Origin: Closterium sp. NIES-65
Taxonomy: Eukaryota; Streptophyta; Zygnematophyceae; Desmidiales; Closteriaceae
NCBI GenBank assembly: GCA_948144175.1
Contig: CANXME010002312.1
Coordinates: 62,001-126,000 of the forward strand
DNA: 64,000 bases
Reading direction: 5' to 3'
A model generated the notes under the pieces. It ran no database searches. It was given only the letters and a program-made list of their open reading frames with translations, and was not told the origin of the DNA. How positions within the stretch are numbered: the first letter of the stretch is position 1; the number at the start of each line of letters is the position of its first letter. This document shows, piece by piece, positions 9,489 through 64,000 of this stretch. The position numbers and the translations under genes are program-made.

Positions 9489-10173
9489 CATTTTCTCTAC
9501 ATATTTGCGTTAGTTACCTTTCAAACCCTTACGTTCACTAGATGAATTTATTTCCTTCCTTCTATTTGAGTGAGACCACTAGATTTCGTGTACTATGCGA
9601 GATCTGAGCAGTTCCGTTCTCCCAGGCATTTGCACTCTAAGTTCCCATACTGACCGACCTGGCCAATGCACCATTTTCCATATACATACGCATTAGATTC
9701 CTTTCGAACCTTATTAGCTAACTAGATTTATATATTTCCCACCTTCTGATCGAGTGAGACCGCTAGATTCCCTTTACTTTTTGAGAAATGAGCGTTTCCG
9801 TTCTCCTTGGCCCTAGTTGCACTATAAGTGCGAAATGCCGGCCAGACTGGCCGATGCACAATTTTCTCTACACATGTACGTTAGTTACCTTTCAAACCCT
9901 TACGTTCACTAGATGAATATATTTCCTACTTTCTATTTGAGTGAGACCACTTGATTCCGTGTACTATGCGAGATCTGAGCGCTTCCGTTCTCCCTGGCAT
10001 TTGCATTTTAAGTTCCGATACGGACCGACCTGGCCAATGCACCATTTTCTCTATACATGTGCGTTGAATACATTTCAAACCTTTTTAGCTGACTAGATTT
10101 ATATATTTCCCACCTTCTGATCGAGTGAGACCGTTAGATTCCCTTTACTTTTTGAGAAACGAGCGTTTCCGTT
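9489..10173. repeat. 371-bp dimeric satellite, block 1
   Basis: First block of the window-wide satellite, beginning directly at the end of the hexamer array with a shared CACC at the joint. It holds slightly under two 371-bp dimers, including the variant half that reads GTGCGTTGAATACATTTC. It ends at the CCGTT target duplication of the first copia insertion. Confidence 0.93.
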
Positions 10174-19116: not shown

Positions 19117-19246
19117 TGTGAAACTTGTAAAACAGGAATGAATGACTAAGTCAAGTTTGGGTACAAATACAACCCTAGAAAGCTGTACCCCATATGTGCT
19201 ACCCCACTATAGCCTACAAACATGCATCAGCTATAGTAATCTGACA
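19117..19246 (-). repeat. 5' LTR of copy 6
   Basis: 130 bp; on the minus strand it starts TGTCAGATTACTATAGC and ends GTTTCACA. It is clearly related to the 131-bp LTR of copy 4 but differs at several positions. It shares the GTAGGCTATAGTGGGGTA block. Confidence 0.9.
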
Positions 19247-22086
19247 CTACCTTCTATTTGAGTGAGACCACTAGATTCCGTGTACTATGCGAGATCTGAG
19301 CGTTTCCGTTCTCCCAGGCATTTGTACTCTAAGTTCCCATACTGACCGACCTGGCCAATGCACCATTTTCTATATACATATGCATTATATTCCTTTCGAA
19401 CCTTATTAGCTCACTAGATTTATATATTTCCCACTTTCTGATCAAGTGAGACCGCTAGATTCCCTTTAGTTTTGAGAAATGAGCGTTTCCGTTCTCCTTG
19501 GCCCTACTTGCACTATAAGTGCGAAATGCCAGCCAGACTGGCCGATGCACCATTTTCTCTACACATGTGCGTTAGTTACCTTTCAAACCCTTACGTTCAC
19601 TAGATGAGTTTATTTCCTACCTTCTATTTGAGTGAGACCACTAGATTCCGTGTACTATGCGAGATCTGAGCGCTTCCGTTCTCCCTGGCATTTGTACTCT
19701 AAGTTCCCATACTGACCGACCTGGCCAATGCACCATTTTCTCTATACATGTGCGTTAGTTACCTTTCAAACCCTTACGTTCACTAGATGAGTTTATTTCC
19801 TACCTTCTATTTGAGTGAGACCACAAGATTCCGTGTACTATGCGAGATCCGAGCGCTTCCGTTCTCCCTGGCATTTGGAGTTTAAGTTCCGATACTGACC
19901 GACCTGGCCAATGCACAATTTTCTCTATACATGTGCGTTGAATACATTTCAAACCTTTTTAGCTGACTAGATTTATATATTTCCCACCTTCTGATCGAGT
20001 GAGACCGTTAGATTCCCTCTACTTTTTGAGAAACGAGCGTTTCCGTTCTCCCTGGCCCCACCTGCACTTTGAGTGCGAAATGCCGGCCAGACTCGCCGAT
20101 GCACCATTTTCTCTACACATGTGCGTTACTTACCTTTAAAACCCTTACGTTCACTAGATGAATATATTTCCTACCTTATATTTGAGTGAGACCGCTAGAT
20201 TCCCTTTACTTTTTAAGAAATGAGCGTTTCCGTTCTCCTTGGCCCTACTTGCACTATAAGTGCGAAATGCCGGCCAGACTGGCCGATGCACCATTTTCTC
20301 TACACATGTGCGTTAGTTACCTTTCAAACCCTTACGTTCACTAGATGAATTTATTTCCTACCTTCTATTTGAGTGAGACCACTAGATTCCGTGTACTATG
20401 CGAGATCTGAGCGCTTCCGTTCTCCCTGGCATTTGCACTCTAAGTTCCCATACTGACCGACCTGGCCAATGCACCATTTTCCATATACATATGCATTAGA
20501 TTCCTTTCGAACCTTATTAGCTCACTAGATTTATATATTTCCCACCTTCTGATCGAGTGAGACCGCTAGATTCCCTTTACTTTTTGAGAAATGAGCGTAG
20601 CCATTCTCCTTGGCCCTACTTGCACTATAAGTGCGAAATGCCGGCCAGACTGGCCAATGCACCATTTTCTCTACACACGTGCGTTAGTTACCTTTCAAAC
20701 CCTTACGTTCACTAGATGAATTTATTTCCTACCTTCTATTTGAGTGAGACCACTAGATTCCGTGTACTATGCGAGATCTGAGCGCTTCCGTTCTCCCTGG
20801 CATTTGCACTCTAAGTTCCCATACTGACCGACCTGGCCAATGCACCATTTTCCATATACATATGCATTAGATTCCTTTCGAACCTTATGAGCTCACTAGA
20901 TTTATATATTTTCCACCTTCTGATCGAGTGAGACCGCTAGATTCCCTTTACTTTTTGAGAAATGAGCGTTTCCGTTCTCCTTGGCCCTACTTGCACTAGA
21001 AGTGCGAAATGCCGGCCAGACTGGCCGATGCACCATTTTCTCTACACATGTGCGTTAGTTACCTTTCAAACCCTTACGTTCACTAGATGAATTTATTTCC
21101 TACCTTCTATTTGAGTGAGACCACTAGATTCCGTGTACTGTGCGAGATCTGAGCGCTTCCGTTCTCCCTGGCATTTGCACTCTAAGTTCCCATACTGACC
21201 GACCTGGCCAATGCACCATTTTCCATATACATATGCATTAGATTCCTTTCGAACCTTATTAGCTCACTAGATTTATATATTTCCCACCTTCTGATCGAGT
21301 GAGACCGCTAGATTCCCTTTACTTTTTGAGAAATGAGCGTTTCCGTTCTCCTTGGCCCTACTTGCACTATAAGTGTGAAATGACGGCCAGACTGGCCGAT
21401 GCACCATTTTCTCTACACATGTGCGTTAGTTACCTTTCAAACCCTTACGTTCACTAGATGAATTTATTTCCTACCTTCTATTTGAGTGAGACCACTAGAT
21501 TCTGTGTACTATGCGAGATCTGAGCGCTTCCATTCTCCCTGGCATTTGCACTCTAAGTTCCCATACTGACCGACCTGGCCAATGCACCACTTTCCATATA
21601 CATATGCATTAGATTCCTTTCAAACCTTATTAGCTCACTAGATTTATATATTTTCCACCTTCTGATCGAGTGAGACCGCTAGATTCCCTTTACTTTTTGA
21701 GAAATGAGCGTCTCCGTTCTCCTTGGCCCTACTTGCACTATAAGTGCGAAATGCCGGCCAGACTGGCCGATGCACCATTTTCTCTACACATGTGCGCTGG
21801 TTACCTTTCAAACCCTTACGTTCACTAGATGAATTTATTTCCTACCTTCTATTTGAGTGAGACCACTAGATTCCGTGTACTATGCGAGATCTGAGCGCTT
21901 CCATTCTCCCTGGCATTTGCACTCATGCGAGATCTGAGCACTTTCCATATACATATGCATTAGATTCCTTTCAAACCTTATTCGCTCACTAGATTTATAT
22001 ATTTCCCACCTTCTGATTGAGTGAGACCGCTAGATTCTCTCTACTTTTTGAGAAATGAGCGTTTCCGTTCTCCTTGGCCCTAGTTG
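19247..22086. repeat. 371-bp dimeric satellite, block 3
   Basis: About 7.6 dimers in regular order. Both ordinary a/b dimers and a variant dimer (near 19860-20100, with GTTGAATACATTTC and the CCCACCTGCAC form) are present. Near 21920-21945 one unit is shortened by an internal rearrangement. It ends at the insertion site of copy 2. No genes are seen. Confidence 0.95.
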
Positions 22087-22220
22087 TGTCAGAACATTAT
22101 AGCTTACTCATTTATGTAGGCTATAGTGGGGTATCCCATAGGGGGTACAACCCAGTTAGGGTTTCCTATTTGTACTCACTTCGTTCATAGTTCACCCATT
22201 CTCTCGTTCACTTCTTGTCA
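22087..22220 (+). repeat. 5' LTR of copy 2
   Basis: 134 bp, from TGTCAGAACATTATAGC to CACTTCTTGTCA. It differs from the 5' LTR of copy 3 at one position. Confidence 0.95.
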
Positions 22221-36644: not shown

Positions 36645-38013
36645 AATGCACCATTTTCGATATACATATGCATTAGATTCCTTTCGAACCTTATTAGCTC
36701 ACTAGATGAATTTATTTCCTACCTTCTATTTGAGTGAGACCACTAGATTCCGTGTATTATGCGAGATCTGAGCGGTTCCGTTCTCCCAGGCATTTGCACT
36801 CTAAGTTCCCATACTGACCGACCTGGCCAATGCACCACTTTCCATAAACATATGCATTAGATTCCTTCCGAACCTTATTAGCTCACTAGATTTATATATT
36901 TCCCACCTTCTGATCGAGTGAGACCGCTAGATTCCCTCTACTTTTTGAGAAATGAGCGTTTCCGTTCTCCTTGGCCCTACTTGCACTATCAGTGCGAAAT
37001 GCCGGCCAGACTGGCCGATGCACCATTTTCTCTACACATGTGCGTTAGTTACCTTTCAAACCCTTACGTTCACTAGATGAATTTATTTACTACCTTCTAT
37101 TTGAGTGAGACCACTAGATTCCGTGTACTATGCGAGATCTGAGCGCTTCTGTTCTCCCTGGCATTTGCACTCTAAGTTCCCATACTGACCGACCTGGCCA
37201 ATGCACCATTTTCCATATACATATGCATTAGATTCCTTCCGAACCTTATTAGCTCACTAGATTTATATATTTCCCACCTTCTGATCGAGTGAGACCGCTA
37301 GATTCCCTCTACTTTTTGAGAAATGAGCGTTTCCGTTCTCCTTGGCCCTACTTGCACTATCAGTGCGAAATGCCGGCCAGACTGGCCGATGCACCATTTT
37401 CTCTACACATGTGCGTTAGTTACCTTTCAAACCCTTACGTTCACTAGATGAATTTATTTACTACCTTCTATTTGAGTGAGACCACTAGATTCCGTGTACT
37501 ATGCGAGATCTGAGCGCTTCTGTTCTCCCTGGCATTTGCACTCTAAGTTCCCATACTGACCGACCTGGCCAATGCACCATTTTCCATATACATATGCATT
37601 AGATTCCTTTCGAACCTTATTAGCTCACTAGATTTATATATTTCCCACCTTCTGATCGAGTGAGACCACTAGATTCCCTTTACTTTTTGAGAAATGAGCG
37701 TTTCCGTTCTCCTTGGCCCTAGTTGCACTATAAGTGCGAAATGCCGGCCAGACTGGCCGATGCACCATTTTCTCTACACATGTGCGTTACTTACCTTTCA
37801 AACCCTTACGTTCACTAGATGAATTTATTTCCTACCTTCTATTGGAGTGAGACCACTAGATTCCGTGTACTATGCGAGATCTGAGCGCTTCCATTCTCCC
37901 TGGCATTTGCACTCTAAGTTCCCATACTGACCGACCTGGCCAATGCACCACTTTCCATATACATATGCATTAGATTCCTTTCAAACCTTATTAGCTCACT
38001 AGATTTATATATT
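36645..38013. repeat. 371-bp dimeric satellite, block 4
   Basis: About 3.7 dimers. The first unit is a hybrid: it starts as a b half and switches to an a half within the shared CACTAGAT near 36700-36707. The rest is regular a/b order up to the ATATT target site of copy 4. Confidence 0.95.
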
Positions 38014-38144
38014 TGTCAGATTATTATGGCTGATGCATGTTTGTAGGCTATAGTGGGGTAGCACATATGGGGTACAGTTTGCTAGGGTTGTATTTGTACC
38101 CAACTCTGACTTAGTCAATTCATTCCTGTTCTGTTAGTTTCACA
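38014..38144 (+). repeat. 5' LTR of copy 4
   Basis: 131 bp, TGTCAGATTATTATGGC to GTTAGTTTCACA. It looks identical to the 3' LTR and contains the GTAGGCTATAGTGGGGTA block. Confidence 0.97.
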
Positions 38145-43300: not shown

Positions 43301-45223
43301 CTTCCTGCTCTGGCCGACCCGGAGTCGGACTCTCTTCGTGCTGCCAGTCCTACTGTCACGCGTCTCCTTGCTACTGCTGTCACTGACCCTTCCTTCGAGT
43401 CGTCTGCTGCGTCTGCCCTTGTCACTGAGCTTGTCGACTTTGCTGCGCGCTGTCGTCTAGACTACGCTGCTCGTCTTGTCGCTGAGTCTGAGTCCGCCTG
43501 TCCTCCGTCCGTCGGGGGTGAGTGTGCCCTTGGCACGGACGTCCTAGAGGACAGGCAGGAGGAGTTACAGTGTCTAGCGGCTGCTTCACCTCATCTCGCG
43601 TCTGTACTGCTTGCCCCTGAGGGAGACCCGGATGCACTAGACATCCCGACTCCGCGTTCTTACGCGGAGGCCGTAGAGGGTCCCTACTCCTCTCAGTGGC
43701 AGGCAGCTATGGATGCAGAGATGGCTTCCTGGAAGTCCACAGGCACCTACGTTGACGCGGTTCCCCCTCCTGGGGCGAACATCGTCAGTGGCATGTGGAT
43801 CTTCAGGGTGAAGCGGCCGCCGGGCTCCCCGCCTGTCTTCAAGGCGCGTTACGTGGCTCGTGGCTTCAGTCAGCGGCAGGGGGTTGACTACTTTCAGACC
43901 TTCTCCCCCACCCCGAAGATGACCACTCTTCGGGTGCTGCTGCACATTGCCGCTCAGCGCGACTACGAGCTTCACTCTCTCGACTTCAGCACTGCGTTCC
44001 TGCAGGGTAGCCTGCACGAGGAGATCTGGCTGCGCCGTCCGCCTGGCTTCACTGGGACTTTCCCTCCTGGCACCCAGTGGAGCCTCCGACGGCCAGTCTA
44101 CGGTCTCCGCCAGGCACCGCGTGAGTGGCACGACACACTGAGGACTACGCTTGCGGCTCTTGGGTTTGCTCCTTCTACTGCTGACCCGTCGCTGTTTCTT
44201 CGCACCGACACTTCCCTGCCGCCGTTCTACATCCTCGTGTACGTCGACGACTTGGTCTTTGCCACAGCGGACACTGCTGGACTCGCCTACGTGAAGTCCG
44301 AGCTGCTGAAGAGACACACGTGCACAGACCTGGGTGAACTGCGCAGCTACCTTGGCTTGCAGATCACTCGGGACAGAGCACGTCGCACCATTACCCTGAC
44401 TCAGTCACACATGGTGCAGCAGGTCCTTCAGCGCTTCGGCTTCACGTACTCCTCGCCTCAGGCCACTCCTCTGCCTACTCGCCACTCACTCTCAGCTCTG
44501 CCTTCGGATGAGTCCGTAGAGTCGAGTGGTCCGTATGAAGAGCTTGTTGGCTGCCTCATGTACCTGATGACCTGCACACGACCTGACCTTTCATACCCTC
44601 TGAGCATTCTTGCACGCTATGTTGCTCCTGGGAGACACAGACCGGAGCACATGGCTGCAGCGAAGAGGGTATTGCGCTACCTGTGCAGTACGTCGGGCAT
44701 GGGGCTAGTGCTTGGAGGGCGGAGTCCAGTGGTCCTTACCGGCCACGCGGACGCTTCTTGGGCTGACGACCAGGCTACGCAGCGGTCGTCACAGGGTTAC
44801 ACCTTCAGCCTTGGTTCCGGTTCTGTCTCGTGGCGGTCTACTCGCTCGTCTTCAGTTCTCGGCTCCAGTTGTGAGGCTGAGATCTACGCCGGGGCCATGG
44901 CTGCACAGGAGCTTCGCTGGCTCACCTACCTGCTGACTGACCTTGGAGAGCCGCCTCGTTCTCCTCCAGTGCTGTACGTAGACAACAAGGCCATGCTGGC
45001 CTTGTGTCGAGAGCAGCGCTTGGAGCACAGAACGAAGCACATTGCTCTCCGCTACTTCCTTGCTCGTGAGCTGCAGCAGCGTGGTCAGTTGCGACTTGCT
45101 TACGTGGCCTCTGAGGCCAACACTGCTGATGTGTTCACCAAGGCACTTGCGCCTTGTGACCATCAGCGCTTTTGTACCCAGCTGGGTCTTGTACCTGTCT
45201 TGCCTCACTTGCTCTCTTCTTGA
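39260..45223 (+). CDS. Copia gag-pol polyprotein, copy 4
   Basis: One uninterrupted frame of 1987 residues from the MATPN methionine; an in-frame methionine seven codons upstream is possible. Domain order is as in copy 1: gag, a long Gly-rich stretch, poly-Gln, the C-x13-C-x3-H-x4-C motif, protease LDSGAS, pre-integrase HHCC, integrase D,D35E (MDVWGP, HSDRGG, GIAERR), hydrophilic repeat linker, reverse transcriptase (YVDD near 1661-1664) and RNase H ending with the TADVFTKAL motif. All expected catalytic residues are visible. Together with identical LTRs this is the best candidate here for a copy that supplies proteins, possibly also to the miniature element at 48408-48754. That link is inference. 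Confidence 0.96.
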
Positions 45224-45531: not shown

Positions 45532-48407
45532 ATATTTTCCACCTTCTGATCGAGTGAGACCGCTAGATTCCCTTTCCTTTTTGAGAAATGAGCGTTTCCG
45601 TTCTCCTTGGCCCTAGTTGCACTATAAGTGCGAAATGCCGGCGAGACTGGCCGATGCACCATTTTCTCTACACATGTGCGTTAGTTACCTTTCAAACCCT
45701 TACGTTCACTAGATGAATTTATTTCCTACCTTCTATTTGAGTGAGACCACTAGATTCCGGGTACTATGCGAGATCTGAGCGGTTCCATTCTCCCTGGCAT
45801 TTGCACTCTAAGTTCCCATACTGACCGACCTGGCCAATGCACCATTTTCCATATACATATGCATTAGATTCCTTCCGAACCTTATTAGCTCACTAGGTTT
45901 ATATATTTCCCACCTTCTGATCGAGTGAGACCGCTAGATTCCCTTTACTTTTTGAGAAATGAGCGTTTCCGTTCTCCTTGGCCCTACTTGCACTATAAGT
46001 GCGAAATGCCGGTCAGACTAGCCGATGCACCATTTTCTCTACACATGTGCGTTAGTTACCTTTCAAACCCTTACGTTCACTAGATGAATTTATTTCCTAC
46101 CTTCTATTTGAGTGAGACCACTAGATTCCGTGTACTATGCGAGATCTGAGCGCTTCCGTTCTCCCTGGCATTTGCACTCTAAGTTCCCATACTGACCGAC
46201 CTGGCCAATGCACCATTTTCGATATACATATGCATTAGATTCCTTTCGAACCTTATTAGCTCACTAGATTTATATATTTCCCACCTTCTGATCGAGTGAA
46301 ACTGCTAGATTCCCTTTACTTTTTGAGAAATGAGCGTTTCCGTTCTCCTTGGCCCTACTTGCACTATAAGTGCGAAATGCCGGCCAGACTGGCCGATGCA
46401 CCATTTTCTCTACACATGTGCGTTAGTTACCTTTCAAACCCTTACGTTCACTAGATGAATTTATTTCCTACCTTCTATTTGAGTGAGACCACTAGATTCC
46501 GTGTACTATGCAAGATCTGAGCGCTTCCGTTCTCCCTGGCATTTGCACTCTAAGTTCCCATACTGACCGACCTGGCCAATGCACCATTTTCGATATACAT
46601 ATGCATTAGATTCCTTTCGAACCTTATTAGCTCACTAGATTTATATATTTCCCACCTTCTGATCGAGTGAAACCGCTAGATTCCCTTTACGTTTTGAGAA
46701 ATGAGCGTTTCCGTTCTCCTTGGCCCTACTTGCACTATAAGTGCGAAATGCCGGCCAGACTGGCCGATGCACAATTTTCTCTACACATGTGCGTTAGTTA
46801 CCTTTCAAACCCTTACATTCACTAGATGAATATATTTCCTACTTTCTATTTGAGTGAGACCCCTTGATTCCGTGTACTATGCGAGATCTGAGCGCTTCCG
46901 TTCTCCCTGGCATTTGCTTTTTGAGTTCCGATACTGACCGACCTGGCCAATGCACCATTTTCTCTATACATGTGCGTTGAATACATTTCAAACCTTATTA
47001 GCTGACTAGATTTATATATTTCCCACCTTCTGATCGAGTGAGACCGTTAGATTCCCTCTACTTTTTGAGAAACGAGCGTTTCCGTTCTCCCTGGCCAGAC
47101 TGGCCGATGCACCATTTTCTCTACACATGTGCGTTAGTTACCTTTCAAACCCTTACATTCACTAGATGAATATATTTCCTACTTTCTTTTTGAGTGAGAC
47201 CCCTTGATTCCGTGTACTATGCGAGATCTGAGCGCTTCCGTTCTCCCTGGCATTTGCTTTTTGAGTTCCGATACTGACCGACCTGGCCAATGCACCATTT
47301 TCTCTATACATATGCGTTGAATACATTTCAAACCTTTTTAGCTGACTAGATTTATATATTTCCCACCTTCTGATCGAGTGAGACCGTTAGATTCCCTCTA
47401 CTTTTTGAGAAACGAGCGTTTCCGTTCTCCCTGGCCAGACTGGCCGATGCACCATTTTCTCTACACATGTGCGTTAGTTACCTTTCAAACCCTTACGTTC
47501 ACTAGATGAATATATTTCCTACCTTATATTTGAGTGAGACCACTAGATTCCGTGTATTATGCGAGATCTGAGCGGTTCTGTTCTCCCTGGCATTTGCACT
47601 CTAAGTTCCCATACTGACCGACCTGGCCAATGCACGACTTTCCATATACATATGCATTAGATTCCTTCCAAACCTTATTAGCTCACTAGATTTATATATT
47701 TCCCACCTTCTGATCGAGTGAGACCGCTAGATTCCCTTTACTTTCTGAGAAATGAGCGTTTCCGTTCTCCTTGGCCCTACTTGCACTATAAATGTGAAAT
47801 GCCGGCCAGACTGGCCGATGCACCATTTTCTCTACACATGTGCGTTAGTTACCTTTCAAACCCTTACGTTCACTAGATGAATTTATTTCCTACCTTCTAT
47901 TTGAGTGAGACCACTAGATTCCGTGTACTATGCGAGATCTGAGCGCTTCCGTTCTCCTAGGCATTTGCACTCTAAGTTCCCATACTGACCGACCTGGCCA
48001 ATGCACCATTTTCCATATACATATGCATTAGATTCCGTTGGAACCTTATTAGCTCACTAGATTTATATATTTCCCACCTTCTGATCGAGTGAGACCGCTA
48101 GATTCCCTTTACTTTTTGAGAAATGAGCGTTTCCGTTTTCCTTGGCCCTACTTGCACTATAAGTGCGAAATGCCGGCCAGACTGGCCGATGCACCATTTT
48201 CTCTACACATGTGCGTTAGTTACCTTTCAAACCCTTACGTTCACTAGATGAATTTATTTCCTACCTTCTATTTGAGTGAGACCACTAGATTCCGTGTACT
48301 ATGCGAGATCTGAGCGCTTCCGTTCTCCTAGGCATTTGCACTCTAAGTTCCCATACTGACCGACCTGGCCAATGCACCATTTTCCATATACATATGCATT
48401 AGATTTC
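45532..48407. repeat. 371-bp dimeric satellite, block 5
   Basis: Nearly eight dimers. Ordinary a/b dimers occupy both ends. A variant pair (GAATATATTTCCTACTTTC with GTTGAATACATTTC) lies at about 46757-47436 and includes two shortened 340-bp units. The block ends with ATTTC, one side of the target duplication of the miniature LTR element. Confidence 0.95.
46757..47436. repeat. Two tandem 340-bp shortened satellite units
   Basis: Units 46757-47096 and 47097-47436 share private variants (ACATTCAC, CCCCTTGATTCC, GCTTTTTGAGTTCC). Each lacks the same 31 bp of the b half, between two GGCC motifs, and 371 minus 31 gives the observed 340. A short deletion, probably between the GGCC repeats, was then amplified as a new dimer. 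The lost piece contains one of the two dyads of the b half. Confidence 0.85.
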
Positions 48408-48546
48408 TGTCAGAGGTCCACTGGTGATCCCCGATCGATCCTAGGGAAGGGTTACAGGCACATTTGCCTGGGGGGTTATGGGCGCACTGACCCGCTACTG
48501 AAACACGCCCTTTTATCCCAATGGTCTAGTGGTTGGGATTCTGAGA
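48408..48546 (+). repeat. 5' LTR of the miniature element
   Basis: 139 bp from TGTCAGAGG to TTCTGAGA. It contains a T4 run (48511-48514) and, near its 3' end, a 7-bp perfect hairpin: ATCCCAA (48515-48521) and TTGGGAT (48533-48539) enclosing the A box. It ends in GA rather than the usual CA. Confidence 0.85.
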
Positions 48547-48579
48547 TGGTATCAGAGAAAAGGTCTCGGGTTCGAATCC
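48522..48579 (+). promoter_or_regulatory. Pol III A and B boxes split across the LTR edge
   Basis: A box TGGTCTAGTGG (48522-48532) fits the consensus TRGYNNANNNG and lies in the LTR. B box GGTTCGAATCC (48569-48579) fits GWTCRANNC and lies in the internal region, 47 bp downstream, a normal spacing. Three hairpins follow one another like a tRNA cloverleaf: ATCCCAA/TTGGGAT, TCTGA/TCAGA around a 7-nt loop at the LTR-primer-site edge, and TCGGG/CCCGG around TTCGAAT. The D-arm region resembles tRNA-Glu, but the acceptor ends do not pair and the variable region is long. It is therefore tRNA-derived rather than a working tRNA gene. The first T4 after the B box is at 48719-48722. Confidence 0.7.
48547..48558 (+). 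other. Primer-binding site of the miniature element
   Basis: TGGTATCAGAGA starts at the first base after the LTR and matches the initiator-Met complement better than the sites of the full-length copia copies do. Part of it forms the loop and 3' strand of the middle hairpin. Confidence 0.85.
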
Positions 48580-48604
48580 CGGTGTATGCACTTCGGGCAT
48601 CCCA

Positions 48605-48615
48605 GTGCGGGGGGG
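48605..48615 (+). other. Polypurine tract of the miniature element
   Basis: GTGCGGGGGGG directly precedes the second LTR, in the position and style of the G-rich tracts of the copia copies. Confidence 0.7.
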
Positions 48616-48754
48616 TGTCAGAGGTCCACTGGTGATCCCCGATCGATCCTAGGGAAGGGTTACAGGCACATTTGCCTGGGGGGTTATGGGCGCACTGACC
48701 CGCTACTGAAACACGCCCTTTTATCCCAATGGTCTAGTGGTTGGGATTCTGAGA
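48616..48754 (+). repeat. 3' LTR of the miniature element
   Basis: 139 bp with no difference seen from the 5' LTR. It carries the A box again but is followed by satellite, so it has no B box. Its T4 run (48719-48722) is the first possible Pol III stop after the B box. Confidence 0.85.
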
Positions 48755-49617
48755 ATTCCTTTCAAACCTTATTAGCTCACTAGATTTATATATTTCCCAC
48801 CTTCTGATTGAGTGAGACCGCTAGATTCCCTTTACTTTTTGAGAAATGAGCGTTTCCGTTCTCCTTGGCCCTACTTGCACTATAAGTGCGAAATGCAGGC
48901 TAGACTGGCCGATGCACAATTTTCTCTACACATGTGCGTTAGTTACCTTTCAAACCCTAATGTTCACTAGATGAATATATTTCCTACTTTCTATTTGAGT
49001 GAGACCACTTGATTCCGTGTACTATGCGAGATCTGAGCGCTTCCGTTCTCCATGGCATTTGCATTTTAAGTTCCGATACTGACCGACCTGGCCAATGCAC
49101 CATTTTCTCTATACATGTGCGGTAAATATATTTCAAACCTTTTTAGCTGACTAGATTTATATATTTCCCACCTTCTGATTGAGTGAGACCGTTAGATTCC
49201 CTCTACTTTTTGAGAGACGAGCGTTTCTGTTCTCCCTGGCCCCACCTGCACTATGAGTGCGAAATGCCGGCCAGACTGGCTGATGCACCATTTTCTCTAC
49301 ACATGTGCGTTAGTTACCTTGCAAACCCTTACGTTCACTAGATGAATATATTTCCTACCTTATATTTGAGTGAGACCACTAGATTCCGTGTATTATGCGA
49401 GATCTGAGCGGTTCCGTTCTCCCAGGCATTTGCACTCTAAGTTCCCATACTGACCGACCTGGCCAATGCACCACTTTCCATAAACATATGCATTAGATTC
49501 CTTCTGAACCTTATAAGCTCACTAGATTTATATATTTCCCACCTTCTGATCGAGTGAGACCGCTAGATTCCCTCTACTTTTTGAGAAATGAGCGTTTCCG
49601 TTCTCCTTGGCCCTACT
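48755..49617. repeat. 371-bp dimeric satellite, block 6
   Basis: About 2.3 dimers between the miniature element and copy 5. It begins with ATTCC, continuing the half-unit interrupted by the insertion, and ends with CTACT, the target site of copy 5. Confidence 0.95.
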
Positions 49618-51853: not shown

Positions 51854-54800
51854 CTCTCGCACCGTCCCCGCCCCTCAGCAGCTCCGTGAGTGGTACTTGC
51901 AGCGTCAGCGTGGTGGTGCGTTTGGTCCCTGCCCCTACGTTCTTCGCACCGGCGACCGTGCGGGGGAGAGGTGTGGAGGCACCCACACGGCCCGCCGCTG
52001 CTTTGGCCGCCTAACCGACGCCTGGCGTCAGCAGTTTCCGGAGGCCGCTGAGATCCCCCGCTGGGGGGAGCTGTCTAGGGCTGGTGTAGCCATTTATGAT
52101 CTTGACTTTGATGCTATTCTTTCTGCTATGTATGTTGTGACTGGTAGTGATGAGGATGACTGTTACCGGTGTTTCCCGCCCGACCCGGGCATTGGTACTG
52201 CTGCGTCAGGTACTAGTGAGGCTGCTGCTCTAGGTGCCAGTGAGTCTGTGCTCTCAGGTGCTGGTGAGTCTGCCCTCTCAGGTACTGTGTCGGCTTCGGC
52301 CTCTCACACCTTCACACTTGACTCTGGAGCGTCTCGCTCCTTCTTTCGGGACCGCACTACTCTCACGCCGCTGAGTCGGCCGGTTGCGGTGTCCCTGGCT
52401 GACCCCTCTGGGGGGCCTGTCCTGTCTCGCTTCTCCACGGTACTTCCGTGTCCGGCGGCCCCCTCTGGCACCCTGTCTGGTCTCTACCTCCCCTCGTTCT
52501 CGACGAACCTGGTGAGTGGTGCTGACCTACAGGATGCGGGTGTCCACCAGTTCACTCCTGCTCGTCAGCGGGTGACCCACTGCACAGAGGCTAGCATGGG
52601 ACGCCACCTGGCTACGTTTACACGTCGGCCAGGGTCGAGCCTGTACACACTGACCACTGCTTCTCCTCCAGGTACTGAGTCTGGTAGGGTCCCTTCGTCT
52701 GGTCAGGTGTTTGCCGCAGCGTCCAGGTCTGGTCCTGAGTCTTCCCCCTGTTCGTGTCGTCGTCTGTCTCACGAGACCCTCCTCTGGCACCACCGCCTTG
52801 GCCACCCCTCTCTGCTTCGGCTCAGAGGCATGGCCTCCCGTCTTCTTGTGTCTGGTCTCCCCCGGTCTCTACCTCCCCTTCCTCAGGGCCCCGGCCCTGC
52901 CTGTGTCCCCTGTGTCGAGGGGCGCCAGCGTGCTGCCCCTCACTCCTCCCAGTTTCCTCCGACAGAGGCCCCGCTGCAGACACTTCACATGGACGTGTGG
53001 GGCCCAGCCCGCGTCCGTGGACAGGGTCAGGAGCGCTACTTCCTGCTCGTTGTTGACGACTACTCGCGTTACACCACAGTCTTCCCCTTGCGCAGCAAGG
53101 GTGAGGTTACTGAGGTGCTGATCGACTGGATCCGCGCAGCTCGTCTTCAGCTCAGGCAGAGCTTTGGCTCCGACTTTCCTGTGTTGCGTCTGCACTCTGA
53201 CAGAGGCGGAGAGTTCTCCTCTGGCCTTCTCCGTGCCTACTGTCGGGCGCGAGGCATCCGCCAGTCCTTCACGCTTCTGGACTCTCCACAGCAAAATGGG
53301 ATTGCTGAGCGCCGCATTGGCATGGTCATGGACGTCGCCCGTACGTCCATGATGCATGCGGCTGCCCCCCATTTTCTGTGGCCGTTTGCGGTCAGGTACG
53401 CAGCGCATCAGATCAACCTCTACCCCAGGGTCTCCAGGCCGGAGACCTCCCCAGCCCTGCTGTGGACGGGGAAGGTTGGCGATGCGTCGGCGTTCCGGGT
53501 CTGGGGATCTCGGGCGTTTGTCCGCGACTTGTCTGCGGACAAGCTGTCCCCTCGCGCTGCTCCCTGCGTCTTCCTAGGGTTCCCCCCCGACGCCCCTGGG
53601 TGGCAGTTCTACCACCCCTCCTCTCGACGTGTTCTGTCCTCCCAGGACGTCACGTTCGACGAGTCGGTACCCTACTACCGCCTCTTCCCCTACCGCACTC
53701 CGTCCCTCCCCCCACCCCCGCTCTTCTTGGTACCAGGTCCCCCCCCGGTAGTCCCCCTCCCCCCTCAGGGTCCTGCCCCTTCAGGTGTGTCCCAGGTAGA
53801 CGCGGTCGAGCCTGTCGAGGTCACTGGTGACTCTGGTGTTGCTGCGGGAGCTGAGCCTAGGGGTGCGGAGTCTGGGGGTGCTGAGCCTGGGGGTGCGGAG
53901 TCTGGGGGTGCTGAGCCTGGGGGTGCGGAGTCTGGGGGTGCTGAGTCTGGGGGTGCTGAGCCTGGGGGTGCTGAGCCTGGGGGTGCTGAGCCTGGAGGTG
54001 CTGAGCCTGGGGGTGCTGTGCCTGGGAGTGCTGTGCCTAGGGGTGCTGAGCCTGGGGGTGCTGAGCCTGGGGGTGCTTCGTCTCGCCGGGAGCCACTCTC
54101 CCCACAGGAGCTGCGTGAGTGGTTTGCCAGGCGCTGGAGGCGTGCTGCTGGTGCTGGTGGTTCTTCGGCTGCAGAGGGCACTGCTGCCGCGCGTCCCGGC
54201 GGTGCTCGTCCTGTGGGTGCTGGAGCTGCTGGGTCTGCGAGTTCTCCTGGAGCTGGTGCTGCTGAGGGTGTTGGCGCTGAGCCTGCTGCTGGCGGTCCGA
54301 CTGACAGTGCTCCTGGTGCTGCTGCTGGAGGTTCTGGAGCTTCTGGTGGTACTGCTGGAGGTGCTACTGGAGTGGGTGCTCCTGCCGAGGGTGCTGGTGC
54401 TGTTCCTGCCGTTTTTGGCGTCGCCGCGCGGCCCCGACCGTACTTCGTTCCGCTCCTGCAGCAGGTTCTTGGTCTTCCACTTTCTCCTCCTCCCTTAGAG
54501 GGTCCGCAGCCTGTCCGGTCACAGCCACAGCTACAGCCTGCCTCCCCTTTGCCTGCTCCTTCTCCCTACGCTGGTCCGACGGGAGGTCTTACTGAGCGTC
54601 GTGAGCCTGCGTCTCGTCCTGCGTCGCCTGTTCGTACTGAGCGCGCTAGTGGTCGCGGGTCGCGTCAGCGTCCTCCTCCTGTCCCTGGCACGCACCGGAT
54701 GTCACTGCGTCCGTCCACTGCTCCTCTGCGTGCCCCGTTGCCTTCTCCTCCTGCTTCCTCTCTTCCTGCTCTTGCCGACCCGGAGTCGGACTCTATTCGT

Positions 54801-56684
54801 GCTGCCAGTCCTACTGTCACGCGTCTCCTTGCTACTGCTCTCACTGACCCTTCCTTCGAGTCGTCTGCTGCGTCTGCCCTTGTCACTGAGCATGTCGACT
54901 TTGCTGCGCGCTGTCGTCTAGACTACGCTGCCAGTCTTGTCGCTGAGTCCGAGTCTGCCTGTCCTCCGTCCGTCGGGGGTGAGTGTGCCCTCGGCACGGA
55001 CGTCCTTGAGGACAGGCAGGAGGAGTTCCAGTGTCTGGCCGCCGCTTCACCCCATCTCGCGTCTGTACTGCTAGCCCCTGAGGGAGACCCGGATGCACCA
55101 GACATCCCGACTCCGCGCTCTTACGCGGAGGCGATAGAGGGTCCCTACTCCTCTCAGTGGCAGGCAGCTATGGATGCAGAGATGGCTTCCTGGAAGTCCA
55201 CAGGCACCTACGTCGACGCTGTCCCCCCTCCTGGGGCAAACATCGTCAATGGCATGTGGATTTTCAGGGTGAAGCGGCCGCCGGGTTCTCCGCCTGTCTT
55301 CAAGGCGCGTTACGTGGCTCGTGGCTTCAGTCAGCGGCAGGGGGTTGACTACTTTCAGACCTTCTCCCCCACCCCGAAGATGACCACTCTTCGGGTTCTA
55401 CTGCACGTTGCTGCTCACCGTGACTACGAGCTGCACTCTCTCGACTTCAGCACAGCTTTCTTGCAGGGCAGTCTGCACGAGGAGATCAGGCTGCGCCGCC
55501 CACCTGGCTTCACTGGGTCTTTCCCTCCTGGTACCCAGTGGAGTCTCCGGCGTCCAGTCTACGGTCTCCGCCAGGCGCCACGTGAGTGTCACGACACACT
55601 GAGGACTACGCTCGCGGCACTTGGGTTTGCTCCGTCTACTGCCGACCCGTCGCGGTTTCTGCGCACCGACACCTCTCTGCCGCCGTTCTACATCCTCGTG
55701 TACGTCGACGACTTGGTCTTTGCCACAGCTGACACTGCTGGACTCGCCTACGTGAAGTCCGAGCTGCAGAAGAGACATACGTGCACTGACCTGGGTAAAC
55801 TGCGTAGCTACCTTGGCTTGCAGATCACCCGGGACAGAGCACGCCGCACCATTACCCTGACTCAGTCACACATGGTGCAGCAGTTCCTTCAGCGCTTCGG
55901 CTTCACGTACTCCTCGCCTCAGGCCACTCCTCTGCCTACTCGCCACTCGCTCTCAGCTCTGCCTTCGGATGAGTCCGTAGAGTCGAGTGGCCCGTATGCA
56001 GAGCTTGTTGGCTGCCTCATGTACCTGATGACCTGCACACGTCCTGACCTTGCATACCCTCTTAGCATTCTAGCACGCTATGTTGCTCCTGGGAGACACC
56101 GACCAGAGCACATGGCTGCAGCGAAGAGGGTGTTGCGTTACTTGTGCAGTACGTCGGGCATGGGGCTAGTGCTTGGAGGGCGCAGTCCAGTGGTCCTCAC
56201 TGGGCACGCAGACGCTTCCTGGGCTGACGACCAGGCTACGCAGCGGTCGTGACAGAGTTACACCTTCAGCCTTGGTTCCGGCTCTGTTTCGTGGCGGGCT
56301 ACTCGCTGGTCTTCTGTTCTCGGCTCCAGTTGTGAGGCTGAGATCTACGCTGGGGCTATGGCTGCACAGGAGTTACGCTGGCTCACCTACCTGCTGACCG
56401 ACCTTGGAGAGCAGCCTCGTTCTCCTCCAGTCCTGTACGTAGACAACAAGGCCATGCTGGCCTTGTGTCGAGAGCAGCGACTGGAGCACAGAACGAAGCA
56501 CATTGCCCTCCGCTACTTTCTTGCTCGTGAGCTGCAGCAGCGTGGACAGTTGCGACTTGCGTACGTGGCCTCTGAGGCCAACACTGCTGATGTCTTCACT
56601 AAGGCACTTGCGCCTTGTGATCATCAGCGTTGTTGCACGCAGTTGGGTCCTGTGCCTGTCTTGCCTCACTTGCTCACTTCTTGA
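50838..56684 (+). pseudogene. Broken copia gag-pol, copy 5
   Basis: Coding region from the MATPN methionine to the normal pol end, with the family's domains in order: gag, Gly-rich and poly-Gln stretches, C-x13-C-x3-H-x4-C motif, protease LDSGAS, HHCC, integrase D,D35E, linker repeat, reverse transcriptase with YVDD, and RNase H. Sequence is very close to copies 2 and 3. The region is disrupted (about two breaks), so I treat it as a fossil in spite of its identical LTRs. Confidence 0.9.
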
Positions 56685-56896: not shown

Positions 56897-57032
56897 TGTC
56901 AGAACATTATAGCTTATATATATTTGTGTAGGCTATAGTGGGGTATCCCATAAGGGGTACAACCCAATCAGGGTTTCCCATATGTACTCACTTCATTCAT
57001 AGTTGATCCATTCTCTCGTTCACTTCTTGTCA
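56897..57032 (+). repeat. 3' LTR of copy 5
   Basis: 136 bp, no difference seen from the 5' LTR, followed by the CTACT duplication. Confidence 0.96.
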
Positions 57033-60000
57033 CTACTTGCACTATAAGTGCGAAATGCCAGCCAAACTGGCCGATGCACCATTTTCTCTACACATGTGCG
57101 TTAGTTACCTTTCAAACCCTTACGTTCACTAGATGAATTTATTTCCTACCTTCTATTTGAGTGAGACCACTAGATTCCGTGTACTATGCGAGATCTGAGC
57201 GCTTCCGTTCTCCCTGACATTTGCACTCTAAGTTCCGATACTGACCGACCTGGCCAATGCACCATTTTCTCTATACATGTGCGTTGAATACATTTCAAAC
57301 CTTTTTAGCTGACTAGATTTATATATTTCCCACCTTCTGATCGAGTGAGACCGCTAGATTCCCTTTACTTTTTGAGAAATGAGCGTTTCCGTTCTCCGTG
57401 GCCCTACTTGCACTATAAGTGCGAAATGCCGGCCAGACTGGCCGATGCACCATTTTCTCTACACATGTGCGTTAGTTACCTTTCAAACCCTTAGGTTCAC
57501 TAGATGAATATATTTCCTACCTTCTATTTGAGTGAGACCACTAGATTCCGTGTACTATGCGAGATCTGAGCGCTTCCGTTCTCCGTGGCATTTGCACTCT
57601 AAGTCCCCATACTGACCGACCTGGCCAATGCACCATTTTCCATATACATATGCATTAGATTCCTTTCGAACCTTATTAGCTCACTAGATTTATATATTTC
57701 CCACCTTCTGATCAAGTGAGACCGCTAGATTCCCTCTACTTTTTGAGAAATGAGCGTTTCCGTTCTCCTTGGCCCTAGTTGCACTATAAGTGCGAAATGC
57801 CGGCCAGACTGGCCGATGCACAATTTTCTCTACACATGTGCGTAAGTTACCTTTCAAACCCTTACGTTCACTAGATGAATATATTTCCTACTTTCTATTT
57901 GAGTGAGACCACTTGATTCCATGTACTATGCGAGATCCGAGCGCTTCCGTTCTCCCTGGCATTTGCATTTTAAGTTCCGATACTGACCGACCTGGCCAAT
58001 GCACCATTTTCTCTATACATGTGCGTTGAATACATTCCAAACCTTTTTAGCTGACTAGATTTATATATTTCCCACCTTCTGATCGAGTGAGACCGTTAGA
58101 TTCCCTCTACTTTTTGAGAAACGAGCGTTTCCGTTCTCCCTGGCCCCACCTGCACTATGAGTGCGAAATGCCGGCCAGACTGGCCGATGCACCATTTTCT
58201 CCACACATGTGCGTTAGTTACCTTTCAAACCCTTACGTTCACTAGATGAATATATTTCCTACCTTCTTTTTGAGTGAGACCACTAGATTGTGTGTATTAT
58301 GCGAGATCTGAGCGGTTCCGTTCTCCCAGGCATTTGCACTCTAAGTTCCCATACTGACCGACCTGGCCAATGCACCACTTTCCATATACATATGCATTAG
58401 ATTCCTTCGGAACCTTATTAGCTCACTAGATTTATATATTTCCCACCTTGTGAACGAGTGAGATCGCTAGATTCCCTTTACTTTTTGAGAAATGAGCGTT
58501 TCCGTTCTCCTTGGCCCTACTTGCACTATAAGTGCGAAATGCCGGCCAGACTGGCCGATGCACCATTTTCTCTACACATGTGCGTTAGTTACCTTTCAAA
58601 CCCTTACGTTCACTAGATGAATTTATTTCCTACCTTCTTTTTGAGTGAGACCACTAGATTGTGTGTATTATGCGAGATCTGAGCGGTTCCGTTCTCCCAG
58701 GCATTTGCACTCTAAGTTCCCATACTGACCGACCTGGCCAATGCACCACTTTCCATATACATATGCATTAGATTCCTTCGGAACCTTATTAGCTCACTAG
58801 ATTTATATATTTCCCACCTTGTGAACGAGTGAGATCGCTAGATTCCCTTTACTTTTTGAGAAATGAGCGTTTCCGTTCTCCTTGGCCCTACTTGCACTAT
58901 AAGTGCGAAATGCCGGCCAGACTGGCGGATGCACCATTTTCTCTACACATGTGCGTTAGTTACCTTTCAAACCCTTACGTTCACTAGATGAATTTATTTC
59001 CTACCTTCTATTTGAGTGAGACCACTAGATTCCGTGTACTATGCGAGATCTGAGCGCTTTCGTTCTCTCTGGCATTTGCACTCTAAGTTCCCATACTGAC
59101 CGACCTGGCCAATGCACCACTTTCCATATACATATGCATTAGATTCCTTTCGAACCTTATTAGCTCACTAGATTTATATATTTCCCACCTTCTGATCGAG
59201 TGAGACCGCTAGATTCCCTTTACTTTTTGAGAAATGAGCGTTTCCGTTCTCCTTGGCCCTACTTGCACTATAAGTGCGAAATGCCGGCCAGACTGGCCGA
59301 TGCACCATTTTCTCTACACATGTGCGTTAGTTACCTTTCAAACCCTTACGTTCACTAGATGAATTTATTTCCTACCTTCTATTTGAGTGAGACCACTAGA
59401 TTCCGTGTACTATGCGAGATCTGAGCGCTTCCGTTCTCCCTGGCATTTGCACTCTAAGTTCCCATACTGACCGACCTGGCCAATGCACCACTTTCCATAT
59501 ACATATGCATTAGATTCCTTTCGAACCTTATTAGCTCACTAGATTTATATATTTCCCACCTTCTGATCGAGTGAGACCGCTAGATTCCCTTTACTTTTTG
59601 AGAAATGAGCGTTTTCGTTCTCCGTGGCCCTACTTGCACTATTAGTGCAAAATGCCGGCCAGACTGGCCGATGCACCATTTTCTCTACGCATGTGCGTTA
59701 GTTACCTTTCAAACCCTTACGTTCACTAGATGAATTTATTTCCTACCTTCTATTTGAGTGAGACCACTAGATTCCGTGAACTATGCGAGATCTGAGCGCT
59801 TCCGTTCTCCCTGGCATTTGCACTCTAAGTTCCCATACTGACCGACCTGGCCAATGCACCATTTTCCATATACATATATATTAGATTCCTTTCGAACCTT
59901 ATTAGCTCACTAGATTTATATATTTCCCACCTTCTGATCGAGTGAGACCGCTAGATTCCCTCTACTTTTTGAGAAATGAGCGTTTCCGTTCTCCTTGGCC

Positions 60001-63000
60001 CTAGTTGCACTATCAGTGCGAAATGCCGGCCAGACTGGCCGATGCACAATTTTCTCTACACATGTGCGTTAGTTACCTTTCAAACCCTTACGTTCACTAG
60101 ATGAATATATTTCCTACTTTCTATTTGAGTGAGACCACTTGATTCTGTGTACTATGCGAGATCTGAGCGCTTCCGTTCTCCCAGGCATTTGCATTTTAAG
60201 TTCCGATACTGACCGACCTGGCCAATGCACCATTTTCTATATACATGTGCATTGAATACCATCAAACCTTTTTAGCTGACTAGATTTATATATTTCCCAC
60301 CTTCTGATCGAGTGAGACCGTTAGATTCCCTCTCCTTTTTGAGAAACGAGCGTTTCCGTTCTCCTTGGCCCCACCTGCACTATGAGTGCGAAATGCCGGC
60401 CAGACTGGCCGATACACCATTTTCTCTACACATGTGCGTTAGTTACCTTTCAATCCCTTACGTTCACTAGATGAATATATTTCCTACCTTATATTTGAGT
60501 GAGACCACTAGATTCTGTGTATTATGCGAGACCTGAGCGGTTCCGTTCTCCCAGGCATTTGCACTCTAAGTTCCCATACTGACCGACCTGGCCAATGCAC
60601 CACTTTCCATATACATATGCATTAGATTCCTTCCGAACCTTATTAGCTCGCTAGATTTATATATTTCCCACCTTCTGATCGAGTGAGACTGCTAGATTCC
60701 CTTTACTTTTTGAGAAATGAGCGTTTCCTTTCTCCTTGGCCCTACTTGCACTATAAGTGCGAAATGCCGGCCAGACTGGCTGATGCAAGATTTTCTCTAC
60801 ACATGTGCGTTAGTTACCTTTCAAACCCTTACGTTCACTAAATGAATTTATTTCCTACCTTCTATTTGAGTGAGACCACTAGATTCCGTGTACTATGCGA
60901 GATCTGAGCGCTTCCGTTCTCCCTGGCATTTGCACTCTAATTTCCCATACCGACCGACCTGGCCAATGCACCATTTTCCATATACATATGCACTAGATTC
61001 CTTTTGAACCTTATTAGCTCACTAGATTTATATATTTCCCACCTTCTGATTGAGTGAGACCGCTAGATTCCCTTTACTTTTTGAGAAATGAGCGTTTCCG
61101 TTCTCCTTGGCCCTACTTGCACTATAAGTGCGAAATGCCGGCCAGACTGGCCGATGCACCATTTTCTCTACACATGTGCCTTAGTTACCTTTCAAACCCT
61201 TACGTTCACTAGATGAATTTATTTCCTACCTTCTATTTGAGTGAGACCACTAGATTCCGTGTACTATGCGAGATCTGAGCGCTTCCGTTCTCCCTGGCAT
61301 TTGCACTCTAAGTTCCCATACTGACCGACCTGGCCAATACACCATGTTCCATATACATATGCAATAGATTCCTTTCGAACCTTATTAGCTCACTAGATTT
61401 ATATATTTCCCACCTTCTGATCGAGTGAGACCGCTAGATTCCCTTTACTTTTTGAGAAATGAGCGTTTCCGTTCTCCTTGGCCCTACTTGCACTATAAGT
61501 GCGAAATGCCGGCCAGACTGGCCGATGCACCATTTTCTCTACACATGTGCGTTAGTTACCTTTCAAACCCTTATGTTCACTAGATGAATTTATTTTCTAC
61601 CTTCTATTTGAGTGAGACCACTAGATTCCGTGTACTATGCGAGATCTGAGCGCTTCCGTTCTCCCTGGCATTGCACTCTAAGTTCCCATACTGACCGACC
61701 TGGCCAATGCACCATTTTCCATATACATATGCATTAGATTCCTTTCGAACCTTATTAGCTCACTAGATTTATATATTTCCCACCTTCTGATCGAGTGAGA
61801 CCGCTAGATTCCCTTTACTTTTTGAGAAATGAGCGTTTCCGTTCTCCTTGGCCCTACTTGCACTATAAGTGCGAAATGCCGGCCAGACTGGCCGATGCAC
61901 AATTTTCTCTACACATGTGCGTTAGTTACCTTTCAAACCCTTACGTTCACTAGATGAATTTATTTCCTCCCTTCCATTTGAGTGAGACCACTAGATTCCG
62001 TGTACTATGCGAGATCTGAGCGCTTCCGTTCTCCCTGGCATTTGCACTCTAAGTTCCCATACTGACCGACCTGGCCAATACACCATCTTCCATATAAATA
62101 TGCATTAGATTCCTTTCGAACCTTATTACCTCACTAGATTTATATATTTCCCACCTTCTGATCGAGTGAGACCGCTAGATTCCCTCTACTTTTTGAGAAA
62201 TGAGCGTTTCCGTTCTCCTTGGCCCTAGTTGCACTATAAGTGCGAAATGCCGGCCAGACTGGCCGATGCACAATTTTCTCTACACATGTGCGTTAGTTAC
62301 CTTTCAAACCCTTACGTTCACTAGATGAATTTATTTCCTACCTTCTATTTGAGTGAGACCACTAGATTCCGTGTACTATGCGAGATCTGAGCGCTTCCGT
62401 TCTCCCTGGCATTGCACTCTAAGTTCCCATACTGACCGACCTGGCCAATGCACCATTTTCCATATACATATGCATTAGATTCCTTTCGAACCTTATTAGC
62501 TTACTAGATTTATATATTTCCCACCTTCTGATCGAGTGAGATCGCTAGATTCCCTTTACTTTTTGAGAAATGAGCGTTTCCGTTCTCCTTGGCCCTACTT
62601 GCACTATAAGTGCGAAATGCCGGCCAGACTGGCCGATGCACCATTTTCTCTACACATGTGCGTTAGTTACCTTTCAAACCCTTACGTTCACTAAATGAAT
62701 TTATTTCCTACCTTCTATTTGAGTTAGACCACTAGATTCCGTGTACTATGCGAGATCTGAGCGCTTCCGTTCTCCCTGGCATTTGCACTCTAAGTTCCCA
62801 TACTGACCGACCTGGCCAATGCACCATTTTTCATATAAATATGCATTAGATTCCTTTCAAACCTTATTAGCTCACTAGATTTATATATTTCCCACCTTCT
62901 GATCGAGTGAGACCGCTAGATTCCCTCTACTTTTTGAGAAATGAGCGTTTCCGTTCTCATTGGCCCTAGTTGCACTATAAGTGCAAAATGCCGGCCAGAC

Positions 63001-64000
63001 TGGCCGATGCACAATTTTCTCTACACATGTGCGTTAGTAACCTTTCAAACCCTTACGTTCACTAGATGAATTTATTTCCTACCTTCTATTTGAGCGAGAC
63101 CACTAGATTCCGTGTACTATGCGAGATCTGAGCGCTTCCGTTCTCCAAGGCATTTGCACTCTAAGTTCCCATACTGACCGACCTGGCCAATGCACCATTT
63201 TCCATATACATATGCATTAGATTCCTTTCGAACCTTATTAGCTCACTAGATTTATATTTTTCCCACCTTTTGGTCGAGTGAGACCACTAGATTCCCTTTA
63301 CTTTTTGAGATATGAGCGTTTCCGTTCTCCTTGGCCCTACTTGCACTATAAGTGCGAAATGCCGGCCAGACTGGTCGATGCACCATTTTCTCTACACATG
63401 TGCGTTAGTTACCTTTCAAACCCTTACGTTTACTAGATGAACTTATTTCCTACCTTCTATTTGAGTTAGACCACTAGATTCCGTGTACTATGCGAGATCT
63501 GAGCGCTTCCGTTCTCCCTGGCATTTGCACTTTAAGTTCCCATACTGACCGACCTAGCCAATGCACCATTTTCCATATAAATATGCATTAGATTCCTTTC
63601 GAACCTTATTAGCTCACTAGATTTATATATTTCCCACCTTCTGATCGAGTGAGACCGCTAGATTCCCTCTACTTTTTGAGAAATGAGCGTTTCCGTTCTC
63701 ATTGGCCCTAGTTGCACTATAAGTGCAAAATGCCGGCCAGACTGGCCGATGCACAATTTTCTCTACACATGTGCGTTAGTTACCTTTCAAACCCTTACGT
63801 TCACTAGATGAATTTATTTCCTACCTTCTATTTGAGTGAGACCACTAGATTCCGTGTACTATGCGAGATCTGAGCGCTTTCGTTCTCCCTGGCATTTGCA
63901 CTCTAAGTTCCCATACTGACCGACCTGGCCAATGCACCACTTTCCATATACATATGCATTAGATTCCTTTCGAACCTTATTATCTCACTAGATTTATATA
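57033..64000. repeat. 371-bp dimeric satellite, block 7
   Basis: Nearly 19 dimers without any insertion, running past the right edge. Spacing measured at 61161-61532 and 63385-63756 is exactly 371 bp. The a half starts ATTTTCTCTACACATG and the b half ATTTTCCATATACATATG. Variant dimers (GTTGAATAC, ACTTTCTATTTG) recur near 57300, 57880-58140 and 60110-60370. The b half carries GCACTATAAGTGC and GGCCAGACTGGCC, both inverted repeats. No gene is seen. Confidence 0.96.

Follow-up and report, generated by a model that had tools for sequence, protein, structure and literature searches.

The window, a 64,000-nucleotide stretch of contig CANXME010002312.1 from Closterium sp. NIES-65, holds at 48408-48754 a miniature LTR retrotransposon (TRIM) of 347 bp that probably carries a tRNA-like RNA polymerase III (Pol III) promoter laid over the junction between LTR and interior. 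Of its two boxes, A is in the LTR and B in the interior, an order that recurs across the family. On balance, and with less assurance, the sequences also favor a fuller proposal, in which the promoter is bipartite and complete only in the intact element. The anticodon arm of a tRNA would have been swapped for the end of the LTR and the primer site, and a cassette of about 60 nt would serve both as a promoter in the DNA and as a U5/priming structure in the RNA. Solo LTRs and 3′ LTRs would be silent, and the life cycle would depend on a Pol III transcript, about 220 nt long, that is copied by Copia.

Anatomy and distribution of the element

The interval 48511-48722, to which the original prediction referred, spans the predicted transcript only. 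The whole element is larger and has the following parts.

48403-48407, + strand: left target site duplication (TSD), ATTTC; it reads ATTCC in 8/8 sister copies examined
48408-48546, + strand: 5′ LTR, 139 bp, TGTCAG...TCTGAGA, identical to 48616-48754
48547-48615: interior, 69 bp, opening with TGGTATCAGAG and closing with GTGCGGGGGGG
48547-48557, + strand: primer binding site (PBS), TGGTATCAGAG, directly adjoining the end of the 5′ LTR
48605-48615, + strand: polypurine tract (PPT) region, GTGCGGGGGGG, G-rich, at the closing end of the interior
48616-48754, + strand: 3′ LTR, 139 bp, identical to the 5′ LTR
48755-48759, + strand: right TSD, ATTCC

These are the attributes of a TRIM: a length of less than 1000 bp, two LTRs, a PBS and a PPT at the ends of the interior, and a TSD. 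The end points of the 5′ LTR recur in other copies of the family that are flanked by 5-bp TSDs. The 11-nt primer site has a single occurrence within the window, and we take it to be the PBS of plant LTR elements, of the initiator tRNA-Met type.

All copies and counts come from one genome of 874 Mb, and the pattern counts were controlled with reversed patterns, each of which gave 0 matches. With up to 3 mismatches allowed, the U3 motif has 11000 matches and the LTR end containing T4 and the A box has 9965; PBS plus B box is found 2239 times, and A box, PBS and B box in that order 2608 times.

Insertion was followed in a sample of 29 loci (L089-L117) with an exact 26-nt U3 match, hand-picked from 100 places listed among the 11000 counted; the U3 rate in this sample is biased. 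An exact 5-bp TSD flanks 23 of the 29 loci when shifts of at most 2 nt are allowed, and three of the other six (L097, L098 and L113) directly adjoin another PBS or purine tract. Five solo LTRs have TSDs (L089, L094, L096, L099 and L107). Tandem arrays also occur within single duplications: L109 is one insertion with the TSD TCGAC and four LTRs drawn from both of the subfamilies described below, and L028 has seven LTRs and the TSD AGCCC. The primer site bears an extra C (TGGTATCCAGAGC) in some copies (L028, L108 and L109), and in the seven-LTR array this form alternates with the normal one. The TRIM interior at L090 is interrupted by an insert that starts TGTCAGAATAATATATAG, ends TTTTGACA and is flanked by TGCAC at either end; it resembles a solo LTR from some other element, with its 5-bp duplication.

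A probable promoter across the LTR/interior junction

The features on which the promoter reading is built are listed here; the R region is putative.

48504-48514, + strand: R region, CACGCCCTTTT here and CAAGCCCTTTT in majority sequences, holding the predicted Pol III start and a T4 run
48511-48514, + strand: T4 run of the 5′ LTR
48515-48539, + strand: 7-bp hairpin, ATCCCAA/TTGGGAT, whose loop is the A box
48522-48532, + strand: A box, TGGTCTAGTGG, in the LTR (U5), with a second copy at 48730 in the 3′ LTR
48567-48581, + strand: T-arm-like hairpin CGGG/CCCG with a 7-nt loop, containing the B box
48569-48579, + strand: B box, GGTTCGAATCC, in the interior
48719-48722, + strand: T4 run of the 3′ LTR, the predicted Pol III terminator

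Both boxes stand where the original prediction had put them, and a check across 48401-48770 bears out its claim that T4 occurs only at 48511-48514 and 48719-48722. The primer site sits between the boxes, in the place that the anticodon arm has in a tRNA. It is hardly credible that the likeness to A and B boxes and T4 runs arose by chance. Absence of an inner T4 would by itself be expected on that view: shuffling the 204-nt stretch between the runs 5000 times left 84% of the products without one, and the figure was 85% for the 231-nt stretch in a subfamily-B copy; the absence, being at chance level, was dropped as promoter evidence. The pairing of the boxes is another matter. Of 20000 dinucleotide shuffles of the element, 0 had an A box with a strict B box at a distance of 30-70 nt, which refutes the chance reading for both boxes together; with a degenerate B box at 30-70 nt the count was 3/5000. 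The 2608 genome matches to the ordered boxes, against 0 for the control, also speak against chance.

Resemblance to a tRNA is partial. Over 48521-48583 the Rfam tRNA model reaches 15.8 bits, short of its 29-bit cut-off, and aligns the A-box and T-arm parts; a subfamily-B copy scores 16.4 bits, below the same cut-off. ARAGORN found no tRNA in the window. Two patterns modelled on tRNA-Glu, as a possible parent gene, had no match, and a tRNA family search returned 63 scored matches, many of them tied in score.

Two main subfamilies bear on the role of the cassette. Subfamily A, the type in the window, has an LTR of about 139 bp and an interior of about 69 bp; in subfamily B these measure about 142 and 93 bp. 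Their majority sequences are identical in 85/85 columns across LTR 55-139 and, apart from a 3-nt indel, agree again over PBS and B box as far as GTGTATGCAC. They diverge in LTR 1-54, where 43/55 columns match, and an interior insertion of 27 columns sets them apart. The A box and the B box are separated by 44 nt in 38 cassettes, 47 in 37, 48 in 4 and 46 in 1 (80 measured out of 93, with overlapping loci and L002-L010 left out). For a promoter predicted from sequence, retention of the whole cassette by both subfamilies is a stronger point than conservation among the copies.

Conservation among the copies lends weak support to a promoter. In addition to the U3-seeded loci, a sample of 30 (L029-L058) was seeded with exact PBS and B box, and its rates for those sites are biased. 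Per-site rates leave out L002-L008 and L010, which represent one amplified insertion, and the duplicate loci L033, L115, L116 and L117, which repeat L032, L051, L049 and L042. Loss of the T4 run or of the boxes from other copies had been foreseen as the outcome that would tell against the original prediction. The copies of this one genome did not refute it: in the U3-seeded loci, T4 is kept in 51/53 full LTRs, and the A box is exact in 42/53 and present in degenerate form in 45/53. A degenerate B box is present in 19/24 interiors, but in these loci it varies as much as the rest of the interior. The same 24 interiors contain the exact PBS in 14 cases, GGTTCGAWTCC in 16 and the G tract in all 24. 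Both T4 runs are present in 20/23 full units, 19 of these 20 having no T4 between them. The PBS/B-box-seeded LTRs contain T4 in 52/54 and an exact A box in 44/54.

Mean mismatch per site in subfamilies A/B is 0.010/0.015 for T4, 0.028/0.011 for the A box, 0.023/0.014 for the U3 core and 0.051/0.065 for the rest of the LTR. T4 and the A box fall below the mean of the rest of the LTR, yet the support that they give is weak because a few variable columns drive that mean; the median LTR column stands at 0-0.036 as well, and that of the rest of the LTR at 0.021/0.020 in A/B. In the U3-seeded loci neither the B box (0.056/0.041) nor the PBS (0.035/0.066) has clearly fewer mismatches than the remaining interior (0.046/0.043).

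The same data could be read as those of an ordinary TRIM transcribed by Pol II from a TATA-less start in U3, the boxes being old tRNA or SINE remains or having been kept for some other reason. We regard this as unlikely, though it is the account with which ours has most seriously to reckon. It is favored by the extent of the LTR 55-139 block, which is common to both subfamilies and wider than the boxes, by the chance level of the T4-free stretch, and by the ordinary conservation of the B box among U3-seeded copies. Against it, none of the five TATA and poly(A) motifs searched (AATAAA, ATTAAA, TATAAA, TATATA and AATGAA) occurs in the element, and box order and tRNA-like spacing are held in both subfamilies and in variants.

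In the mechanism that the split promoter suggests, TFIIIC would bind the A box of the LTR together with the B box of the interior, and transcription by Pol III would begin at about LTR position 97 (48504), some 18 nt upstream of the A box. The polymerase would pass the first T4 about 11 nt after the start, continue through U5, the primer site, the interior and U3, and stop at 48719-48722. The predicted RNA would measure about 219 nt, end in UUUU and have a terminal repeat of 11 nt. Host initiator tRNA-Met would prime this RNA, and resident Copia elements would supply the reverse transcriptase and integrase that copy and insert it. A solo LTR or 3′ LTR would represent half a promoter and is expected to be silent, because the B box lies in the interior only; in tandem arrays every LTR would form a full promoter with the interior that follows it. 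The low tRNA scores, the lack of a tRNA call or parent match, the chance level of the T4-free stretch and the weak conservation signal all count against the split-promoter reading, as do the reach of the common block beyond the boxes and the T4 run that Pol III must cross about 11 nt past its start.

The start is placed upstream of T4 because reverse transcription requires a terminal repeat on the RNA. A chimeric LTR found at L035 and L118 follows the TRIM up to about LTR position 96 and then has a Copia-type LTR end; at L032, a complex locus, a second TRIM fragment starts at about LTR position 94. The CAA of the majority sequences at LTR 97-99 is 18 nt upstream of the A box. These two breakpoint events, on which the division rests, point to U3 at 1-96, R at 97-107 and U5 at 108-139. 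They agree with the minimal terminal repeat of the original prediction; its start at 48510-48515 and its length of about 210 nt are revised to about 48504 and 219 nt.

It is also possible, if improbable, that the A-box stretch serves as the loop of a U5 RNA hairpin beside the primer site, acting in packaging or priming and not in transcription. The A box does form the loop of a 7-bp stem, and the variants ATCCCAG/CTGGGAT and ATCCTAG/CTAGGAT still pair. Among 34 distinct variants, 6 cells are changed on both sides; shuffles average 1.5, and 1/500 of them reaches 6. Slid versions of the stem gave 0-2. These both-side changes fall in only 2 of the 7 pairs, which 56/500 shuffles also reach, and kinship among the copies is uncontrolled. 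A hairpin of this kind would leave the B box at tRNA spacing and the T4 run unexplained, and the predicted RNA taken as a whole is no more stably folded than its shuffles (z -0.64). The hairpin and promoter roles of the stretch could coexist. The fold predicted for the window RNA joins UCUGA from the end of the LTR to UCAGA within the PBS, closing a 7-nt loop, and shows the B box as a T-arm-like hairpin. As we interpret it, the cassette resembles a tRNA that has lost its acceptor stem and has the LTR/PBS junction as its anticodon arm.

Relation to known miniature elements

The comparisons below extend as far as the accessible parts of the cited papers. TRIMs with a tRNA promoter are already published, as Helenus (Kojima 2024, PMC10886601), whose defining feature is a tRNA-like sequence within the LTR; TRIMp3 is the name proposed there for Pol III TRIMs. 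The original prediction knew of no tRNA-type family that uses a split arrangement. The tRNA type itself has been described, with its tRNA piece placed inside the LTR. The split layout was not met in the open-licence literature searched, which is not proof of its absence in print.

Helenus, an LTR element, resembles the Closterium family in being small and non-autonomous and in having tRNA-like A and B boxes, a PBS and a PPT, with 5-bp TSDs in its plant and fungal members and with tandem arrays in at least one family (PMC10886601). Its sole plant member, from Selaginella moellendorffii, is close in size to the window element, its LTR being 120 bp and its interior 85 bp long. The window family also makes 5-bp TSDs, and its boxes keep a tRNA-like spacing in both subfamilies, with a B box conserved no better than its surroundings and a tRNA score below cut-off. 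It differs, as judged from the published description, in having only the A-box half in the LTR, the PBS at the position of the anticodon arm and the B box in the interior. Its tRNA-like sequence is not contained in the LTR: the B box at 48569-48579 is interior, and the order is the same in the 2608 matches.

Cassandra is comparable in its TRIM-borne Pol III promoter, its RNA running from LTR to LTR with a repeat of only 18 bp (PMC10886601), its Met PBS, and tandem arrays of LTRs and interiors (PMC7215508, PMC10853983, PMC10886601); Met PBSs are stated for Cassandra and for plant TRIMs in the accessible text of PMC10853983 and PMC3532108. Its promoter, in contrast, is that of 5S rRNA and lies inside the LTR, and it is 565-860 bp long (PMC10886601). 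Membership in Cassandra was rejected: an Rfam scan of 48380-48780 at E <=5 gave only weak tRNA and weak plastid ycf2 matches. SMART/FRetro129 (Gao 2012, PMC3281118) is similar in size (292 bp), in its 5-bp TSD and in having a Copia helper candidate, whereas its 85-bp LTRs carry a TATA motif; neither "tRNA" nor "polymerase" appears in the main text of that paper as accessible. Membership was dropped because LTR length and ends differ, a comparison with the published description only. PbTRIM of the harvester ant (PMC3532108) is a TRIM with PBS and PPT but has a TATA-box U3, an R of 68-70 bp, a Leu PBS and a 4-bp TSD. The accessible text of a survey of plant TRIMs (PMC4717578) contains none of the words tRNA, polymerase III, promoter and PBS.

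If the reading is correct, the Closterium family would represent a second, structurally different Pol III route for LTR elements, in a plant-type genome; one plant TRIM with a tRNA promoter is known to PMC10886601, as far as its accessible text goes. A half promoter in solo LTRs is also predicted to keep many genomic scars silent.

Copia chimeras and genomic setting

Chimeras with Copia elements are direct features of the copies. A Copia-type LTR, assigned by eye from shared motifs, is fused exactly at the PBS to a TRIM interior in 5 of the 30 PBS/B-box-seeded loci (L034, L047, L052, L055 and L057), a set in which L032 and L033 are one place. A later listing gave 22 places with PBS and B box and no canonical A box, of which L110 was already included, one was omitted and 20 were examined. 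A Copia-type LTR was found at 7/20 (L119, L120, L125, L126, L129, L132 and L133, with L126 repeating L125 and L133 repeating L055), a TRIM LTR whose A box or A-box spacing is altered at 11/20, and other sequence at 2/20. The locus L063, with the TSD GCCGA, starts with a Copia LTR, continues with the interior and then an LTR of the TRIM, and goes on with the PBS and coding region of Copia to a second Copia LTR. A scan of its frame in three pieces found GAG-pre-integrase, integrase core, SH3 and RVT_2, the order of Copia.

Template switching between TRIM and Copia nucleic acids packaged together would be the best explanation of the joints, and recombination of DNA copies is a further possible source. 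Joined at the PBS, the chimeras point to Copia elements as the candidate helper of the TRIM. They would record which helper is copied along with a TRIM of Pol III type; the helper of Cassandra is called an open question in the accessible text of PMC10886601. A search with one pattern for an LTR with Copia U3 and TRIM U5 had no match, and TRIM U3 with Copia U5 gave the 2 matches L035 and L118, which by common structure and flank look like a single event. In L119, L129 and L047 the last 10-12 nt of the Copia-type LTR, beside the primer site, resemble the TRIM LTR end and read GATTCTGACA or GATTCTGAGA, as if from an early template switch of first-strand cDNA.

The window itself contains four pairs of Copia-type LTRs and two single LTRs, all of the candidate-helper kind, in a satellite region.

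10210/17574, 38051/45438 and 49657/56936, + strand: Copia-type LTR pairs, window motifs, long frames between
36607/29296, − strand: Copia-type LTR pair, window motif, long frames between
near 22124 (+ strand) and near 19209 (− strand): single Copia-type LTRs
9486-10173, 19247-22079, 36645-38014, 45532-49613 and 57026-64000: 371-bp satellite

Pieces of three frames in the window score for RVT_2 (15555-17339, 43415-45223 and 54225-56252). The TRIM copy sits inside the 371-bp satellite, which consists of two diverged halves of about 185 bp each, is broken up by Copia insertions and the TRIM, and is possibly centromeric. Since the junction and flanks of the window copy recur in all of L002-L008 and L010, these loci represent one insertion amplified with the satellite; ATTCC is found on both sides in 7/8, and L007 differs by one change on the right side. 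L011 is a separate insertion site. Long tandem arrays occupy 1-7025 of the window, with the 17-bp unit GTCCAGGAGCTTGCCTG, and 7025-9488, with the 6-bp unit CGTCCA. Elsewhere in the genome, L059 has a full-length rbcL-like frame that matches Rubisco large chains, of plant type in our reading, and occurs 20 times on several contigs, in both orientations on some.
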